A stretch of 64,000 bases of DNA from Kineococcus xinjiangensis (lineage in GTDB: Bacteria; Actinomycetota; Actinomycetes; Actinomycetales; Kineococcaceae): contig NZ_PTJD01000018.1 of NCBI RefSeq assembly GCF_002934625.1, positions 1 through 64,000 on the forward strand, given 5' to 3'. How positions within the stretch are numbered: the stretch's first letter is position 1; each line of letters opens with the position of its first letter. A program made the position numbers and the translations under genes. Positions 1 to 21,700 of the stretch are shown in pieces. The notes under the pieces are model-generated. The model worked only from the letters and a program-made list of their open reading frames with translations. It was not told the DNA's origin and did no database searches.

Positions 1-97
1 TCACGCAACTCCGCGGGGTAACGCTTGGACGTGCTCCCTGACATGACTCCATCCTTCCCAAGGAACGGAGTCTCCGGACTCGCCGGGGCGGTTCAGG

Positions 98-337
98 GTG
101 CTGGTGGACCTGGGCCTAGAAGAGGACGAAGAGGACCCGGTCGTCACCCACCTGCTGGCGCATCCCGGCGTTGTGGAGGCTTACCAGGAGGACACCGAGG
201 TCTACTACTGGGTGACCCACACACCCCTGACCATCGCGCAGGCGGGCGCCCACGCTCTTGCCGCACTCCTGACAGGCCACCGGGCCGCCCTGCGCCGGGC
301 AGGACTGCAACCACCCGACGAGCCCACCAGCACATGA
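98..337 (+). CDS. Small hypothetical protein
   Basis: A 79-residue protein I do not recognise. It has an acidic N-terminal patch (GLEEDEEDP), an aromatic centre (EVYYWVTH) and a helical, Ala/Leu-rich C-terminal half. The GTG start is the first plausible one after the in-frame stop at 44-46; no clear ribosome binding site precedes it, so the true start is uncertain. It ends just before the first intergenic repeat and lies in what looks like an integrated element, so it is probably accessory cargo. Function unknown. Confidence 0.45.
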   Translation: MLVDLGLEEDEEDPVVTHLLAHPGVVEAYQEDTEVYYWVTHTPLTIAQAGAHALAALLTGHRAALRRAGLQPPDEPTST

Positions 338-353
338 CCACGTCCTGAGCTGC

Positions 354-396
354 GCCCAACGCACTCATCTGCCGCGCTGCGGGCGCGATCATGGGC
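354..396. repeat. Intergenic imperfect-palindromic repeat, copy 1
   Basis: The layout is AAC (358-360), ten variable bases, GCCGC (371-375), two bases, then TGCGGGCGCGATC (378-390). The same layout with the same spacings occurs at 1258 and 2370. Outer arms GCCCA (354-358) and TGGGC (392-396) are inverted, and CCGC/GCGG forms an inner stem. The core box GCCCAAC (GTTGGGC on the minus strand) fits the integron attC core consensus GTTRRRY, but the site is shorter than typical attC sites. Confidence 0.6.
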
Positions 397-421
397 GGCG
401 GGCGGACACGCGACTTTGTCG

Positions 422-1255
422 ATGTGCGCGCATGGAGGGAGTCGTGTCCTGGGTACCGTCGGGAGGGTGGATAAGGCTCCGGAGGCTGCCCCGTTGTGGT
501 CGGCTCTGCGACGAGGTCGCCGTGATGAAGCCGTCCAGGTGCTGCTGTCGATGCCGGCAGCACAGCGGCAGCGCTTGCGCCCGGCGGTGCGTGCTCACGA
601 ACGCTTCGTTACCAGCCATCCGGACAGTGCCCGCGCCCCCGACGGGGAGTGGAGCGGCCCGCTGCGCTCCGGTCACTGGTCCGCGGCGAAGGCCGCGCTT
701 CTGGCCTGCTCCCCGCTGCCACAGGCGGTGAAGTACTGGCCCTTGGACATGCCCGACGCCGTCGACCTGCCCCGTGCGTTCTTCCCCGAGGACCTCGACG
801 CGTTCGTCGAGGAGTGGTCGGCCCGCTTCCTGCGCAACCCCAAGGCCTGGGACCGCATCCGCGGCCTGGATGCGATGTTCGACTGGGCCCACCAGGGCCT
901 GGTGCCTGCCCCGACGCAGCCAGGGGCGGTGCTCTGCCTGGCCACCGGCATCCCGGGCGCCCACAGCGGCACCCACCTGCTGCGCTACCTCGAAGAGCGG
1001 CCCTGCCTGATCGAGGTCACCTTCGCGCGCATCTTCGACGTCGACGGCATCAAGGGCGCCTCGCTGGCGCAGCGGGACGAGACCACCCCCTGGCGCAGTC
1101 GACGGCTGGACAACTACGTGATCCCGCAGTTGATCCGGCGCGGGCACTGGAGCCGACAGATGGTCCTCGACGGCATCGACCGTGCCCTCAGCCGCGGCCA
1201 GACCCCCTACCTACGGCGCTGGTTCCACGGCCTCGCGCAGATCATCGGCCCTTGA
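422..1255 (+). CDS. Hypothetical protein, possibly truncated DUF6493-like
   Basis: About 277 residues from the ATG used here. The N-terminal part (LWSALRRGRRDEAVQVLL, then an RLRPAVRAHERF stretch) recalls from memory the start of large actinobacterial DUF6493 proteins, which are several times longer, so this may be only an N-terminal portion. No catalytic motif was recognised. The start is unsure: TTG at 494 lies eight bases after GGAGG and would remove a low-complexity N-terminus. The stop codon lies inside repeat copy 2, so the repeat or a recombination there may have defined the 3' end. Confidence 0.6.
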   Translation: MCAHGGSRVLGTVGRVDKAPEAAPLWSALRRGRRDEAVQVLLSMPAAQRQRLRPAVRAHERFVTSHPDSARAPDGEWSGPLRSGHWSAAKAALLACSPLPQAVKYWPLDMPDAVDLPRAFFPEDLDAFVEEWSARFLRNPKAWDRIRGLDAMFDWAHQGLVPAPTQPGAVLCLATGIPGAHSGTHLLRYLEERPCLIEVTFARIFDVDGIKGASLAQRDETTPWRSRRLDNYVIPQLIRRGHWSRQMVLDGIDRALSRGQTPYLRRWFHGLAQIIGP

Positions 1256-1290
1256 CGAACATCCGCCTCCGCCGCTCTGCGGGCGCGGTC
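1253..1290. repeat. Intergenic imperfect-palindromic repeat, copy 2
   Basis: Same architecture as copy 1: AAC at 1258-1260, ten bases, GCCGC at 1271-1275, two bases, TGCGGGCGCGGTC at 1278-1290. It sits between two convergent genes, beginning at the stop codon of the left gene and ending about 11 bases before the stop of the right one. Confidence 0.6.
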
Positions 1291-1301
1291 TGCGCGGGGT
1301 G

Positions 1302-1712
1302 CTAGGGCACGTCTCCGGCCTCGCGGATCCACTCTTCGATGTCGGCCTTGCTCTGCGGCTCGGGCATGACGACACCGCCGGTGAGCCACAAGCGCGCCCC
1401 CAGCTCCCCGGCCAGGTCGTACAGGCCGGTGAACACCGCTCGGGCATCACTGGTGCTGGTTCCGGTCGGGCTGAGGTAGGAGATCGCCCCGTCCATCATC
1501 CGCAGCTGCCCGTCGCTGCCCCGGCACAAGAGGAGGTCGTAGGAGACGGTTCCGTGCAGCCAACCGCCCTCGCCGTCCTCCTCGCCCAGGTCCGCGCCGA
1601 GCTCGGCCAGCCGGCGGCGCAGCAGCCTCTCGTCCAGCACCGGCAGCGGATCAAGGTTCTCCCCGTCCTCGTCGACCCACTGCGCCGCGAAGATTCCGAA
1701 GTGCTCAGCCAT
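1302..1712 (-). CDS. Hypothetical acidic protein
   Basis: A 136-residue acidic protein, family not recognised. It begins MAEHFGIFAAQWVDEDGENL and has a predicted mixed alpha/beta body with a conserved-looking VSYDLLLCRG strand and a C-terminal EEWIREAG helix. No signal peptide or membrane segment. Its ATG overlaps the 3' end of the upstream gene by eight bases, so the two are almost certainly translated together and may work as a pair. It ends close to repeat copy 2. Confidence 0.6.
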   Translation of the reverse strand: MAEHFGIFAAQWVDEDGENLDPLPVLDERLLRRRLAELGADLGEEDGEGGWLHGTVSYDLLLCRGSDGQLRMMDGAISYLSPTGTSTSDARAVFTGLYDLAGELGARLWLTGGVVMPEPQSKADIEEWIREAGDVP

Positions 1713-2265
1713 CGCTGCACCCCTCCGGCGTGGGGGACTCGTCGATGAGGAAGGTGACCACCTCGTGCAGCGCCTGCGGGTTGACCGGTTCGCGGTACAT
1801 GACCACCCCGAGGGCCTCCCCGTAGACGAAGCTCTCCGGCTTGAAGATGCCGAACGGTCCTTCCAGCACGGTTGCGTGCTGGTTGACGTCGCGGATCTTC
1901 GGGTCGCGCCGGTACACGACCCACCGCGCCTGCGGCAGCACGGCGTGCAGGACCTGCCCCAGGTAGGCGCCGACCTCGTCGACGAGGCGGACCTGGCGCA
2001 GTGAGAGCAGCTTCTCCCCGAAGAAGCCACTGCCGTTCTCGGCACCCGGCTGCCACCAGGACGGGGAGCCGGCGAGCCCGTCCTCGGCGTCGGCGTCGAG
2101 CTGCTCGAAGAACCACACCCCCAGCGCCTCGAGGCCCTCCACGGTGCCATCCAGCTCGGGCCCACCCGTGCGCGCGATGCGCCGGCGCAGGCGCTCCACC
2201 AGCTGCGGCCGCTCCGCGAGGTAGGACTCACGGTAGGCCTCGGCCTCCTCGAGGCTCAGGCGCAT
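1705..2265 (-). CDS. Hypothetical protein, partner of the downstream gene
   Basis: A 186-residue soluble protein of unknown family. The ATG at 2265 is chosen because GGGAAGG lies about nine bases upstream on the coding strand; the frame stays open to 2382 but that extension is Arg/Ser-rich and unconvincing. Features seen: an N-terminal helix rich in Glu/Arg, a central region with several tryptophans, and a C-terminal segment (GPFGIFKPESFVYGEALG) with the look of a compact beta fold. It overlaps the next gene by eight bases. A toxin/immunity or regulator pair is possible but nothing seen supports one role. Confidence 0.6.
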   Translation of the reverse strand: MRLSLEEAEAYRESYLAERPQLVERLRRRIARTGGPELDGTVEGLEALGVWFFEQLDADAEDGLAGSPSWWQPGAENGSGFFGEKLLSLRQVRLVDEVGAYLGQVLHAVLPQARWVVYRRDPKIRDVNQHATVLEGPFGIFKPESFVYGEALGVVMYREPVNPQALHEVVTFLIDESPTPEGCSDG

Positions 2266-2363
2266 GAAGTCACGCACCTTCCCAGCGTAGGAGCGCACCA
2301 CCAGCACGGACCGAGAGTGGGCGTCCGCATCCCACTCCTGGCCCTGGCGCTCGATCCATGACC

Positions 2364-2404
2364 TTGACCAACGCGCGCTCACGCCGCCGTGCGGGCGCGA
2401 TCAA
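2364..2404. repeat. Intergenic imperfect-palindromic repeat, copy 3
   Basis: AAC at 2370-2372, ten bases, GCCGC at 2383-2387, two bases, TGCGGGCGCGATC at 2390-2402. The outer arms TTGA (2364-2367) and TCAA (2401-2404) are inverted. The right end contains the stop codon of the leftward membrane-protein gene. Confidence 0.6.
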
Positions 2405-2697
2405 TCGAAGAGGCCCTCGAGGAAGATGCTGGGACCACCGAAGGTGAGGAAGACAAGCAGGGCGGAGCCCGGCACCGCCACCAGTCCCCACCGCTTGGCT
2501 CGGGGGAGGAGTCCGACCCAGGCTGCGCCCCCGAGTACCAAGGCGCCCGGCGCCGCGAAGAACCACCACACCTCGCGAGGCAGCAGCGGCGTCCTGCCGA
2601 TCCACCCGTCGAAGATGCCCATGATCAAGCACGCATAGGCACCAACCCCGCTCAGGAGGGCCATGGCGATCGCCGCGGTCCAGCGCCACCACGCCAC
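2401..2697 (-). CDS. Small hypothetical membrane protein
   Basis: About 98 residues with three hydrophobic segments: AAIAMALLSGVGAYACLIMG, a middle WWFFAAPGALVLGGAAWVG, and a third containing VPGSALLVFLTF. It should be an integral cytoplasmic membrane protein. The GTG at 2697 is preferred since GAGGGG lies upstream and the longer version, from an ATG at 2850, adds 51 Arg/Ala-rich residues that overlap a repeat copy. That ATG does, however, directly abut the stop codon of the upstream gene. No family recognised. Its stop codon lies in repeat copy 3. Confidence 0.55.
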   Translation of the reverse strand: MAWWRWTAAIAMALLSGVGAYACLIMGIFDGWIGRTPLLPREVWWFFAAPGALVLGGAAWVGLLPRAKRWGLVAVPGSALLVFLTFGGPSIFLEGLFD

Positions 2698-2769
2698 CTC
2701 GCGTCCCCTCTCGCGTCGATCGTCTACACGATGACGCCTTGCTTGCCTCGAAGCAGCCGCTGAGCGGGT

Positions 2770-2833
2770 CACCTCAACATCCGACTTTGCCGCGGTCAGT
2801 GCGCGCCTCTGCCGATCTGCGCGCAGTGAGGTG
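2770..2833. repeat. Divergent fourth copy of the intergenic repeat
   Basis: AAC (2776-2778), ten bases and GCCGC (2789-2793) match the other copies; the rest has drifted. It is a clear nested dyad: outer arms CACCTCA (2770-2776) and TGAGGTG (2827-2833), inner arms TGCGCGC and GCGCGCA. It lies just downstream of the gene ending at 2851, as the other copies lie at the 3' ends of their genes. Confidence 0.45.
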
Positions 2834-2850
2834 GCGCCGCTGGGGTTCAT

Positions 2851-3132
2851 TCAGTAGCGGTTGGTCTTGGCCCTGCGAAGGATCATCAGCGCAAAGGGCA
2901 GGAAGATCACCACTGTTACCACGGCGAGCATGACCAGCCCTGCAGGGCCGTACTCGACGTGGTGCTCGCAGGCCGCTGGCATGTCGCCGCTGAGGGGACC
3001 TTGGCCGTAGCAGCGGTAGCCCGACCATGATTGGAACCACCCCATGATCTGGCGAGCCCCGTACACGACGATCACCGTGGCGGCAAGGAAGCAGACGACC
3101 GCTGCACGCATCAGTCTTGCCCGCACGCTCAT
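2851..3132 (-). CDS. Small hypothetical two-helix membrane protein
   Basis: A 93-residue protein with an N-terminal membrane helix (AAVVCFLAATVIVVYGARQI), a short extracytoplasmic loop with two cysteines (YRCYGQG and AACEHH, possibly a disulfide), and a second helix ending in a basic tail (RRAKTNRY). No family recognised. It is followed on the same strand by the other small membrane protein. The 244 bases to its right, up to the tRNA fragment, show no gene I can support. Confidence 0.6.
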   Translation of the reverse strand: MSVRARLMRAAVVCFLAATVIVVYGARQIMGWFQSWSGYRCYGQGPLSGDMPAACEHHVEYGPAGLVMLAVVTVVIFLPFALMILRRAKTNRY

Positions 3133-3376
3133 CTCGGGAGGCTACGGGGACTGCCCCGAGTTCGGTTGACTCTCGTCGGTCGGGGCGGTCCCGCCTGCCG
3201 CCGTGGCTCGCTAGACGGGTCGGTGAGGCTGCCGCAGCCGGTCAGCAGCTTGTCAGCAGCGTTGATGGTCGCCGGTCGTCCCACCTTGCTCTCTGGGTGA
3301 CTCAACCGGACCCTGACCTGCACCGACGCTCCACAATGGACACGTCCCGCCACCACTCAGCACGCTGCCGGGACTT

Positions 3377-3420
3377 CTTCTAATCGGACGGTCGAAGGTT
3401 CGAATCCTTCCGGGCGCGCC
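3377..3420 (+). other. tRNA-Arg(TCT) 3' fragment, probable attachment site
   Basis: The sequence holds an anticodon loop CTTCTAA (TCT at 3379-3381), the 3' side of the anticodon stem, a perfect T-arm (GAAGG TTCGAAT CCTTC) and the 3' acceptor strand CGGGCGC plus G. The 5' half is absent: the bases before the loop do not pair with TCGGA, and no GCGCCCG acceptor strand occurs at the expected place. Many integrases recombine between the anticodon loop and the 3' end of a tRNA gene and leave exactly such a fragment at the distal end of the element. The intact tRNA would then lie left of this window. Confidence 0.75.
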
Positions 3421-3453
3421 GTCTCCCCCGGCCCTCAGCCCCGGTCCACTCGA

Positions 3454-4312: not shown

Positions 4313-5428
4313 TCAGCCCGCGCGGGCCGCGGCCCGCGCCCCGAGGCGCTTCTCGAGCCGGGTGCGCAGCGGCTTCTGCAGGGGGCGCTCCACGAGGCGG
4401 TGCAGCGCCCAGGCCAGGGCGATGCAGCAGCCCAGGGCGACGGCGAGGGTGGGGTAGCGCCCCAGCGCGGTGTGCAGCACGTCGATGAGGGCCCACCCGA
4501 CGTACTCGTGGGTCAGGTAGAGCGGGTACGTCAGGGCGCCCAGCGCCGTCAGCAGCGGCAGGTCCAGGTCCCGCACGACCGGCACGAGGGCGACGGCGGC
4601 GACCAGGCCGATGCACCCGGCCACGACGAGGGCGAGGACGACCGGGGAGGTCCGCCCACCGGAGGTGACGTGGTCGATGGCCCCCGTCTGCCGGGTGGCC
4701 GCCAGGAGCACCGCCTGGGCCGCGTTGAGGCCGAGCAGCAGCCAGCGTCCGCCCGTGTGCCCGTCGCGGTGGAGGACGTAGAGCACCATCCCGGCGGCGA
4801 ACAGCGGCGCGAAGCCCAGCAGCGTCACCGCCGAGGCCGCGGCCGGCGCGGCGAGGGTGAGCGCCGTGCACAGCACGGGCCCGACGCCGGCGCAGGCCAG
4901 CACCCTGCGGCGGGTCGGGCCGGCGAGCAGGAGCAGCAGCACCGCCAGGTAGAACTGCAGCTCCACCCACAGCGTCCAGTACACCCCGTCCACGCGGGGC
5001 ACCCCGAACAGGTCCTGCAGCATCGTCAGGTTCACCAGGACCTCGACCGGACCGAGGTCGCCGAACGTCGGCCAGGCCCAGCGCAGGGTGGCGGTCAGCA
5101 GGACGGCCGCCCAGTACGCGGGGAAGAGGCGGCTGACGCGCGACGCCACGAACTGCGGCACGCTGCGGCCCCAGGCCGACATCAGGATGACGAACCCGCT
5201 GATCACGAAGAAGAGGTGGACTCCTGCGTAGCCGTAGCGGGTCACCGCCGACAGGGCGGGGAAGGCCTCCACCGGCAGCGGACCCCACCGCACGTGGTCC
5301 CGGGCGGTGAAGTGGAACAGCACCACCGCCAGGGCCGCCAGCAACCGCAGCGCGTCCATCGACCGCAGCCGGGAGCCCGCGCCGGCCGTGCGGACGGGAC
5401 GGGGCGGGGCGGGCGCGGGGCGGGGCAC
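4313..5428 (-). CDS. Acyltransferase 3 family membrane protein (OafA-like)
   Basis: About 371 residues with roughly ten membrane helices. The N-terminal helix has the family pattern SMDALRLLAALAVVLFHF with the essential His, followed by GYAGVHLFFVISGFVILMS and a basic VASRVSRLFPAYW loop. Family members move acetyl or other acyl groups onto extracellular polysaccharides, lipids or glycans from the membrane. The GTG at 5428 is chosen because homologues have several residues before the LDxLR motif; ATG at 5359 is the alternative, and neither has a good ribosome site. Next to a polysaccharide locus it could O-acylate that polymer (inference). Confidence 0.85.
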   Translation of the reverse strand: MPRPAPAPPRPVRTAGAGSRLRSMDALRLLAALAVVLFHFTARDHVRWGPLPVEAFPALSAVTRYGYAGVHLFFVISGFVILMSAWGRSVPQFVASRVSRLFPAYWAAVLLTATLRWAWPTFGDLGPVEVLVNLTMLQDLFGVPRVDGVYWTLWVELQFYLAVLLLLLAGPTRRRVLACAGVGPVLCTALTLAAPAAASAVTLLGFAPLFAAGMVLYVLHRDGHTGGRWLLLGLNAAQAVLLAATRQTGAIDHVTSGGRTSPVVLALVVAGCIGLVAAVALVPVVRDLDLPLLTALGALTYPLYLTHEYVGWALIDVLHTALGRYPTLAVALGCCIALAWALHRLVERPLQKPLRTRLEKRLGARAAARAG

Positions 5429-21508: not shown

Positions 21509-21685
21509 GACGCCGAGCCCTGCCACCGCTGACGAGGTCCCGCGACGACTCATGGCAGGGGTGGGGGAACCACTTCCGGGCCGCCCCCCGATCTCAGATC
21601 GGGGTGGTGGTCCTCGGGGTGAAGCCGGTGCGAACCGGCCGGGCGACCTTCCCGCCCGAACCCGACAGCTCACCTCGCAGGCGTC
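21509..21685 (+). promoter_or_regulatory. c-di-AMP riboswitch (ydaO/yuaA leader)
   Basis: Conserved ydaO elements occur in order: GGGGGAACCAC near 21567, GGGGTGAAGCC near 21617, and near the end CCGACAGCTCACCTCGCAGGC. P1 is closed by GACGCC (21509-21514) and GGCGTC (21680-21685). In actinobacteria this riboswitch commonly controls cell-wall hydrolases, as here. P1 ends directly at the GGAGAGG ribosome site, so control of translation as well as transcription is possible. Confidence 0.85.
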
Positions 21686-21700
21686 GGAGAGGTCCTCGCT

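Follow-up and report, generated by a model that had tools for sequence, protein, structure and literature searches.

What does the 3' half of a tRNA gene, standing alone 3.4 kb from the end of a contig of Kineococcus xinjiangensis, tell us about the DNA to its left? The stretch that we analysed, here called the window, comprises bases 1-64,000 of contig C18 (72,759 bp), base 1 being the contig end, in a draft genome of 4.62 Mb and 42 contigs. The initial annotation had described positions 3377-3420 as a 3' fragment of tRNA-Arg(TCT) lacking its 5' half, and we confirm this: read directly, they are the final 44 bases of the tRNA, beginning at C32 in its anticodon loop, they match base for base the end of an intact tRNA on contig C8, and the sequence before 3377 has no match to the tRNA. 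ARAGORN predicts no tRNA at 3377-3420, and Rfam gives none at gathering scores. With a single mismatch the repeat extends to 57 bp (3377-3433 vs. C8:141949-142005), in two parts:

3377-3420, + strand: 3' half of tRNA-Arg(TCT), the probable attR core; exact repeat of C8:141949-141992
3421-3433, + strand: extension of the att repeat beyond the tRNA end; 12 of 13 bases identical

A 181-base query searched against the bacterium's own genome (4.6 Mb, 42 contigs) returned two matches at an E value of 0.001, itself and the C8 tRNA, and the resemblance is therefore not due to chance. The 44-mer had no further copy in C8:110000-221768 or in C18, and neither did 16-base pieces of its two ends; the exact 44-mer had 0 matches in a wider collection of genome contigs, from which this or very near genomes may be missing.

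An intact tRNA-Arg(TCT) with the same 44-base end and an integrase close by, which the initial annotation had proposed to look for, does exist; it lies on C8, with the integrase gene 101 bases away, within a recognisable actinomycete integrative and conjugative element (AICE):

C8:141918-141992 (= L003:11919-11993): intact tRNA-Arg(TCT), called by ARAGORN
C8:142094-143371: tyrosine integrase (PF00589, E 9.9e-20; Arm-DNA-bind_4, Phage_int_SAM_3 and Phage_integrase)
C8:145564-146508: Prim-Pol (PF09250, E 8.4e-44)
C8:146750-148996: FtsK/SpoIIIE gene (PF01580, E 6.9e-8; 32.6 bits vs. a cut-off of 24)

Counted from the tRNA, the gene order is integrase, HTH_17, a large gene without a Pfam match, Prim-Pol and FtsK_SpoIIIE, and our reading of the HTH_17 gene suggests an excisionase-like protein. 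Measured against the AICE recognition modules given in PMC3218068, the C8 element has the tyrosine integrase, the Prim-Pol replication gene, the FtsK/SpoIIIE transfer gene and the insertion at a tRNA 3' end with a direct repeat (44 bp exact, 57 bp with one mismatch). It thus shares with AICEs of the pSAM2/SLP1 type a tyrosine integrase at a tRNA 3' end, an excisionase-like HTH gene, Prim-Pol, FtsK/SpoIIIE and a repeat of the tRNA 3' half; unlike them, it comes with arrays of gene cassettes at the cargo end (on C8, on contig C22 and in the window) and with att copies on different contigs.

Left of the C8 tRNA are an SSB gene and an EttA gene (above its NCBIfam cut-off), and because EttA adjoins tRNA-Arg(TCT) in 9/9 fetched sister-genus stretches (G003 and G007 being outside this sample) we regard this side as native. 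Compared by eye with several sister-genus copies, the tRNA-Arg(TCT) itself differs by paired compensatory changes in the anticodon stem and the T stem. The DNA after tRNA-Arg in these nine relatives (2 to 18 kb examined) gave no convincing match to either side in the K. xinjiangensis genome; neither an empty site nor the C18 genes downstream of tRNA-Arg were found there, nor was the chromosomal side of the window found beside tRNA-Arg.

Since the sole other close copy of the repeat is an intact tRNA beside an integrase and an AICE, we consider 3377-3433 most likely to be the attR of an AICE-type island in tRNA-Arg(TCT), with 1-3376 as island DNA, and assign this reading a probability of roughly three in four. 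The proposal that 1-3376 belongs to an integrated element is thereby supported as the most likely one; its partner end lies on another contig, so that a single element is what we infer. The island's tyrosine integrase would have recombined an attP, carrying a copy of the tRNA 3' half, with the tRNA; the attP-borne copy would have restored a whole tRNA at the integrase end (C8:141918-141992), and the original 3' half would have been displaced to the far end, at window position 3377. The cargo, small genes and an approximately 68-bp repeat in one orientation, may have been assembled by a putative site-specific recombinase, and C8 and C18 would be the two ends of one island. Cassettes follow the AICE on C8 and precede attR on C18. 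The two observations named beforehand as fatal to an island did not materialise, as the intact tRNA has its repeated 3' sequence, and, in place of conserved synteny, 0 of the six ORFs in 1-3376 has a homologue (E 1e-3) in the Kineococcus stretches that were fetched, which are not whole genomes.

The two att copies sit on separate contigs, and C8 runs on into the chromosome. Next after its three repeats (154751-156812), at 157218, comes the gene of a calcineurin-like phosphoesterase, and five fetched sister-genus genomes have this gene beside homologues of C8:192836-200192, a cluster of PASTA kinase, penicillin-binding protein and FtsW/RodA genes; C8 beyond the cassettes is therefore core chromosome, and, with no attR on C8, one island requires separation by array recombination, an IS event or misassembly. 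We rejected a simple inversion of C8:157-192 kb, as the orientation of the phosphoesterase with respect to the kinase/RodA cluster matches that in the relatives; the gene downstream of tRNA-Arg in G004 and G011 encodes an alpha/beta hydrolase, from a family too common to be used as a marker.

Alternatively, the fragment could be the attR of an older or other integration into the same tRNA (accretion), the C8 AICE having arrived later and lost or moved its far end. C8 does lack a second att despite 64 kb beyond its cassettes, and Frankia AICEs are described as occurring in tandem, so that a single tRNA has several att copies (PMC3218068); however, the genome holds exactly two copies of the repeat (E 0.001), the number that one element predicts, and the arrays on C8 and C18 share one polarity with respect to the tRNA, and we consider accretion unlikely. 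Far less probable still is an assembly artefact, by which C8 would have been misjoined where its cassettes meet the chromosome, near 156.8-157.2 kb, or the end of C18 would be chimeric. The assembly is fragmented (42 contigs), many of the contig ends carrying IS copies, and a misjoin of C8, if true, would remove the main objection to one island; against an artefact stand the position of the fragment, 3.4 kb inside a 72.8-kb contig, and a second locus pair, at a tRNA-Pro, that repeats the plan independently:

C22:17150-17224: tRNA-Pro(GGG) of the second island, beside an AICE with a cassette array on its far side
C16:78511-78578: 3' half of tRNA-Pro, 68 bp with 2 mismatches, starting at the same anticodon-loop base

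The C16 half lies 1.3 kb from an array of 24 repeats, the C22 AICE also has Prim-Pol and FtsK/SpoIIIE genes (its FtsK-like protein being 79% identical to the C8 counterpart), and the repeats have the same polarity relative to the tRNA on C22 and C16. Because the C22/C16 pair matches C8/C18, the plan of the window, a tRNA fragment with cassettes on one contig and a tRNA with AICE and cassettes on another, occurs twice in this genome.

Genome contigs were scanned with the C8 integrase, which gave 54 loci, 21 with a predicted tRNA within 1 kb and 33 with none. Among the six closest relatives (53-62% identity), five have a tRNA at a distance of 103-142 bp, which is tRNA-Phe in four cases and tRNA-Arg(ACG) in the fifth; all six loci belong to other families, and none of them yielded a cassette repeat. 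The tRNA-Arg(ACG) case is Planosporangium mesophilum (L204), where a 61%-identical integrase accompanies a 43-bp direct repeat with copies 8.57 kb apart. This element resembles C8/C18 in its integrase, its use of a tRNA-Arg and a repeat whose first base is the same loop position as in the window fragment, but it differs in the anticodon (ACG), in its 8.57-kb length with both ends on one contig, and in having no cassette repeat. Within K. xinjiangensis, a tRNA-Phe(GAA) on C17 (L110:4041-4117) lies ~145 bp before a cassette array and has no second 3' copy in the genome. As this tRNA-Phe lacks a copy and the six integrase loci lack the repeat, array and att fragment are not fixed companions.

The DNA that we assign to the island consists of gene cassettes in a row: between about 96 and 3132, small genes alternate with the ~68-bp repeat that joins them. 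The features left of the att site, and the nearest chromosomal gene to its right, are as follows:

1-94, - strand: end of a multi-copy insertion sequence, its orfA start reading leftward, with terminal repeat TGAACCGCCCCGGCGAGTCCGGAGACT; the contig breaks here
98-337, + strand: cassette ORF of 79 aa with weak, sub-threshold similarity to DUF6907 (Pfam E 0.008)
355-433, + strand: cassette-joining repeat, full-length (model R1 E 2.4e-17; also by nhmmer)
416-1255, + strand: cassette gene, ORF of 279 aa (DUF6493 E 0.009, below cut-off)
1255-1292, + strand: cassette-joining repeat, 5' half (R1 E 5.4e-4)
1302-1712, - strand: cassette gene 1 of a pair, 136 aa, no assigned function; 77% identical to the C8:155739-156155 protein
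1705-2382, - strand: cassette gene 2 of the pair, no assigned function; 58% identity across 185 residues with the C8 partner region
2368-2403, + strand: cassette-joining repeat, 5' half (R1 E 3.1e-5)
2401-2850, - strand: cassette gene without a Pfam match (ORF call)
2773-2805, + strand: cassette-joining repeat, 5' half, weak (R1 E 0.006)
2851-3132, - strand: final ORF before the island end, no Pfam match (ORF call)
4313-5359, - strand: acyltransferase (Acyl_transf_3, Pfam), on the chromosomal side

Bases 96-307 are 84% identical to C27:502-713, and 1283-2313 are 75% identical to C8:155720-156743. The codon-usage caller puts the start of ORF 416-1255 at 728, and the translations of 2401-2850 and 2851-3132 look, in our reading, like small membrane proteins. 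The acyltransferase has homologues in the sister-genus genome G006 (69% identity) and in G024, from another family (60%). Farther along the window there is a c-di-AMP riboswitch (21533-21696; Rfam RF00379, 57.2 bits).

The insertion sequence at 1-94, which we take to be IS3-like, has 95-100 bp in common with the ends of contigs C1, C29, C25, C17 and C15. Seven fetched stretches bear an orfB-type end of the IS, C27 and C33 having two copies each; of their flanks, that of C33 alone (GGG) fits C18, and C33-IS-C18 is a likely join across the assembly gap on the strength of these 3 bases; C33 carries two more repeats in the same orientation. Flanks of the same element pair three sets of contig ends as likely joins, C1-C4 (CCT), C25-C19 (AAG) and C33-C18 (GGG).

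How far does the cassette repeat reach? An iterative search seeded by the window copy recovered 120 repeats in the initial set of fetched stretches and, once these had been joined, 121 on 16 contigs of the genome, and R1, a sequence model of 85 positions, made 141 own-genome matches at E 0.01 out of 150 scored candidates; all these counts come from models trained by iteration on their own hits. The alignment (A1) holds 35 of 36 chosen full-length repeats, one from C27 having been left out. The median distance between repeats is 708 bp (105 gaps), and of the 27 stretches, own and sister-genus, with at least two repeats, 24 carry them all on one strand. At E 0.001, R1 matched all 11 sister-genus (Kineococcus) genomes, with 1 to 27 matches each among the best 45 candidates, G002 and G010 having one weak match each; one weak match each was found in 10/87 genomes from other families of the order, and one match each at E 1e-5 in 4/295 other genomes of a class-wide sample. 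The repeat system is thus seen here almost only in the bacterium's own family. In G003, a three-contig genome that we take to be Kineococcus radiotolerans SRS30216 (PMC2587704), positions 4,590,000-4,761,183 hold 59 repeats (E 0.01), 59/59 on the minus strand, and 4,540,000-4,589,999 hold 12 more hits (E 0.05), all minus. These 71 hits on one strand span G003:C2:4540916-4731110, in the last 220 kb of the 4.76-Mb chromosome.

Between the repeats lie genes of mixed function. Our simple codon-usage script, from which errors are to be expected, above all in start sites, called 118 ORFs in and beside the arrays, 64 along the repeat direction and 54 against it; after flank, IS-like and doubtful ORFs had been removed by hand, 92 proteins remained (set A2, in which two window ORFs were entered with longer starts). 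Pfam assigned 51 families to these 92 (E 0.001), none of them dominant among the 25 listed; sigma-70 regions (5 proteins), acetyltransferase (4) and glyoxalase (2) domains recur among the matches listed, where HIT, EPSP synthase, Imm7 and rifampin ADP-ribosyltransferase (Arr-ms) domains are single cases. PADLOC recognised five families, with one protein each. Homologues at E 1e-15 or better (up to 76% identity) were present in the fetched sister-genus stretches for 15/92 of the cassette proteins.

We reasoned that site-specific joining predicts a change of partner within the repeat, and this is what related cassettes display. Comparing array with array yielded 24 similar segments, 8 of them at 90% identity or more; five of these were aligned with their flanks and their edges read by eye, C13/C27 and two C27/C33 pieces being left out (short, at contig ends), and a sixth aligned pair, C16/C21 (86%), had unclear edges and was not counted. 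In 5/5 pairs (90-95% identity) the right edge of identity lay either within the 5' box of the repeat (AAC[A/G]TCCG, with variants) or a few bases beyond it. Two pairs (C17/C27 and C22/C8) had their left edge after the 5' box, and the other three (C10/C16, C16/C17 and C2/C22) had it at the second or third box (GACGTCCG, CGGATG, or variants). In 3/5 pairs the repeat core differed on both sides, that is, it does not travel with the gene. No cassette reversed relative to the repeats was seen among the pairs compared by eye, a comparison that was unsystematic.

The repeats might nonetheless be ordinary dispersed intergenic elements, REP- or MITE-like, between genes that spread by homologous recombination with no dedicated recombinase. 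Half-length copies are common: when 119 copies were aligned to the full-length model, 62 reached the 3' end region and 36 were 5' halves ending before column 53. Folding as DNA looks unremarkable (six repeats on both strands, 12 folds, z from -3.11 to +0.60), outer boxes pair in 68.2% of cells vs. 67.7% in shuffles, and the 5' and 3' boxes within a repeat give no covariation signal, by a pattern that parsed 23/121 repeats or by a second test against shuffles. Between neighbouring repeats, four comparisons of box covariation (11 pairs each) had a lowest shuffle fraction of 0.05, which we do not count as a signal. There are also isolated R1 matches, few in number (e.g. C1:29416, C11:152145, C13:105316 and C15:8436), and no recombinase is tied to the arrays. 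On the other side, REP- and MITE-like repeats are scattered in either orientation, whereas these are mostly clustered and mostly on one strand (24/27 stretches, and 59/59 in the K. radiotolerans stretch): the 3 hits on C8 fall within 2.1 of the 112 kb examined, the 3 on C18 within 2.4 of 73 kb and the 8 on C22 within 7.0 of 42 kb. The sharp switch of partner within the repeat likewise speaks against dispersal, which we hold to be possible but doubtful.

We also asked whether these are true integron cassettes, a CALIN in which attC sites lie without an IntI nearby. Like chromosomal integrons and CALINs, they form long arrays in a single orientation, whose cassettes differ in function, mostly contain one gene and share a repeated joining site; many copies have AAC...GTT-like ends, and the acetyltransferase, glyoxalase and rifampin ADP-ribosyltransferase domains fit such cargo. 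However, no gene in the draft genome exceeds the TIGR02249 cut-off for integron integrases (265 bits), although a CALIN does not itself require IntI; the best match is XerD (125.6, whole protein), and the remaining matches are XerC/XerD-like genes and element integrases. In integrons the attC core travels with its cassette and crossover takes place at one box, a rule from which 3/5 of our pairs depart; 54/118 ORFs oppose the repeat and folding appears weak. We therefore judge true integron cassettes improbable, and, because no IntI passes the cut-off and the sites break the attC rule, the Kineococcus arrays look like an integron analogue.

Complete integrons are reported to be absent from Actinobacteria, which have a few CALINs, and integrons to be extremely rare there (PMC9024848); Actinobacteriota are listed among the phyla with integrons (PMC8618304). 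Titles and abstract openings of open PubMed Central papers yielded no published description of such arrays in Kineococcus or Actinobacteria, the words repeat, integron and cassette are absent from the main text of the K. radiotolerans genome paper, and a repeat survey that covers K. radiotolerans names no such arrays in its available sections (PMC5378121).

One gene comes into question as the joining enzyme:

C21:39901-40917 (L135:4901-5917): Xer-like tyrosine recombinase; its scores fall short of the XerC, XerD and IntI cut-offs of NCBIfam

It is the third Xer-like gene of the genome, with orthologues (63-71% identity, E 1e-30) in 8/11 sister-genus genomes and in 0/47 genomes of other families at the same threshold. 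Its range resembles that of the repeats, which makes it a candidate cassette enzyme. We rejected it as the proven enzyme: it is absent (E 1e-30) from G003, G004 and G005, which bear repeats, and repeats lie near it in G009 and G010 alone, as weak hits, and at least 10 kb away in G007 and G008. Another tyrosine recombinase gene is located inside a cassette array of G008 (C25; L171:10936-11841).

The tRNA fragment alone is an ordinary, textbook attR; the interest lies in the cassette arrays of the island DNA. As a tentative interpretation, to which we give somewhat less than even odds, the Kineococcus lineage may have a cassette-capture system of its own, a separately evolved integron analogue that holds more than 100 cassettes of mixed function, works without IntI, uses a lineage-specific Xer-like recombinase (the candidate being C21:39901-40917) and is carried between cells as cargo by AICEs that insert at tRNA genes. 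Integrons are the known bacterial system that collects genes as cassettes, and a second, independently built one, if true, could show which features gene capture requires. Carriage by an AICE, if true, would offer cassettes a plausible route from cell to cell, and the system could explain a variable part of Kineococcus genomes, including that of the radiation-resistant K. radiotolerans.
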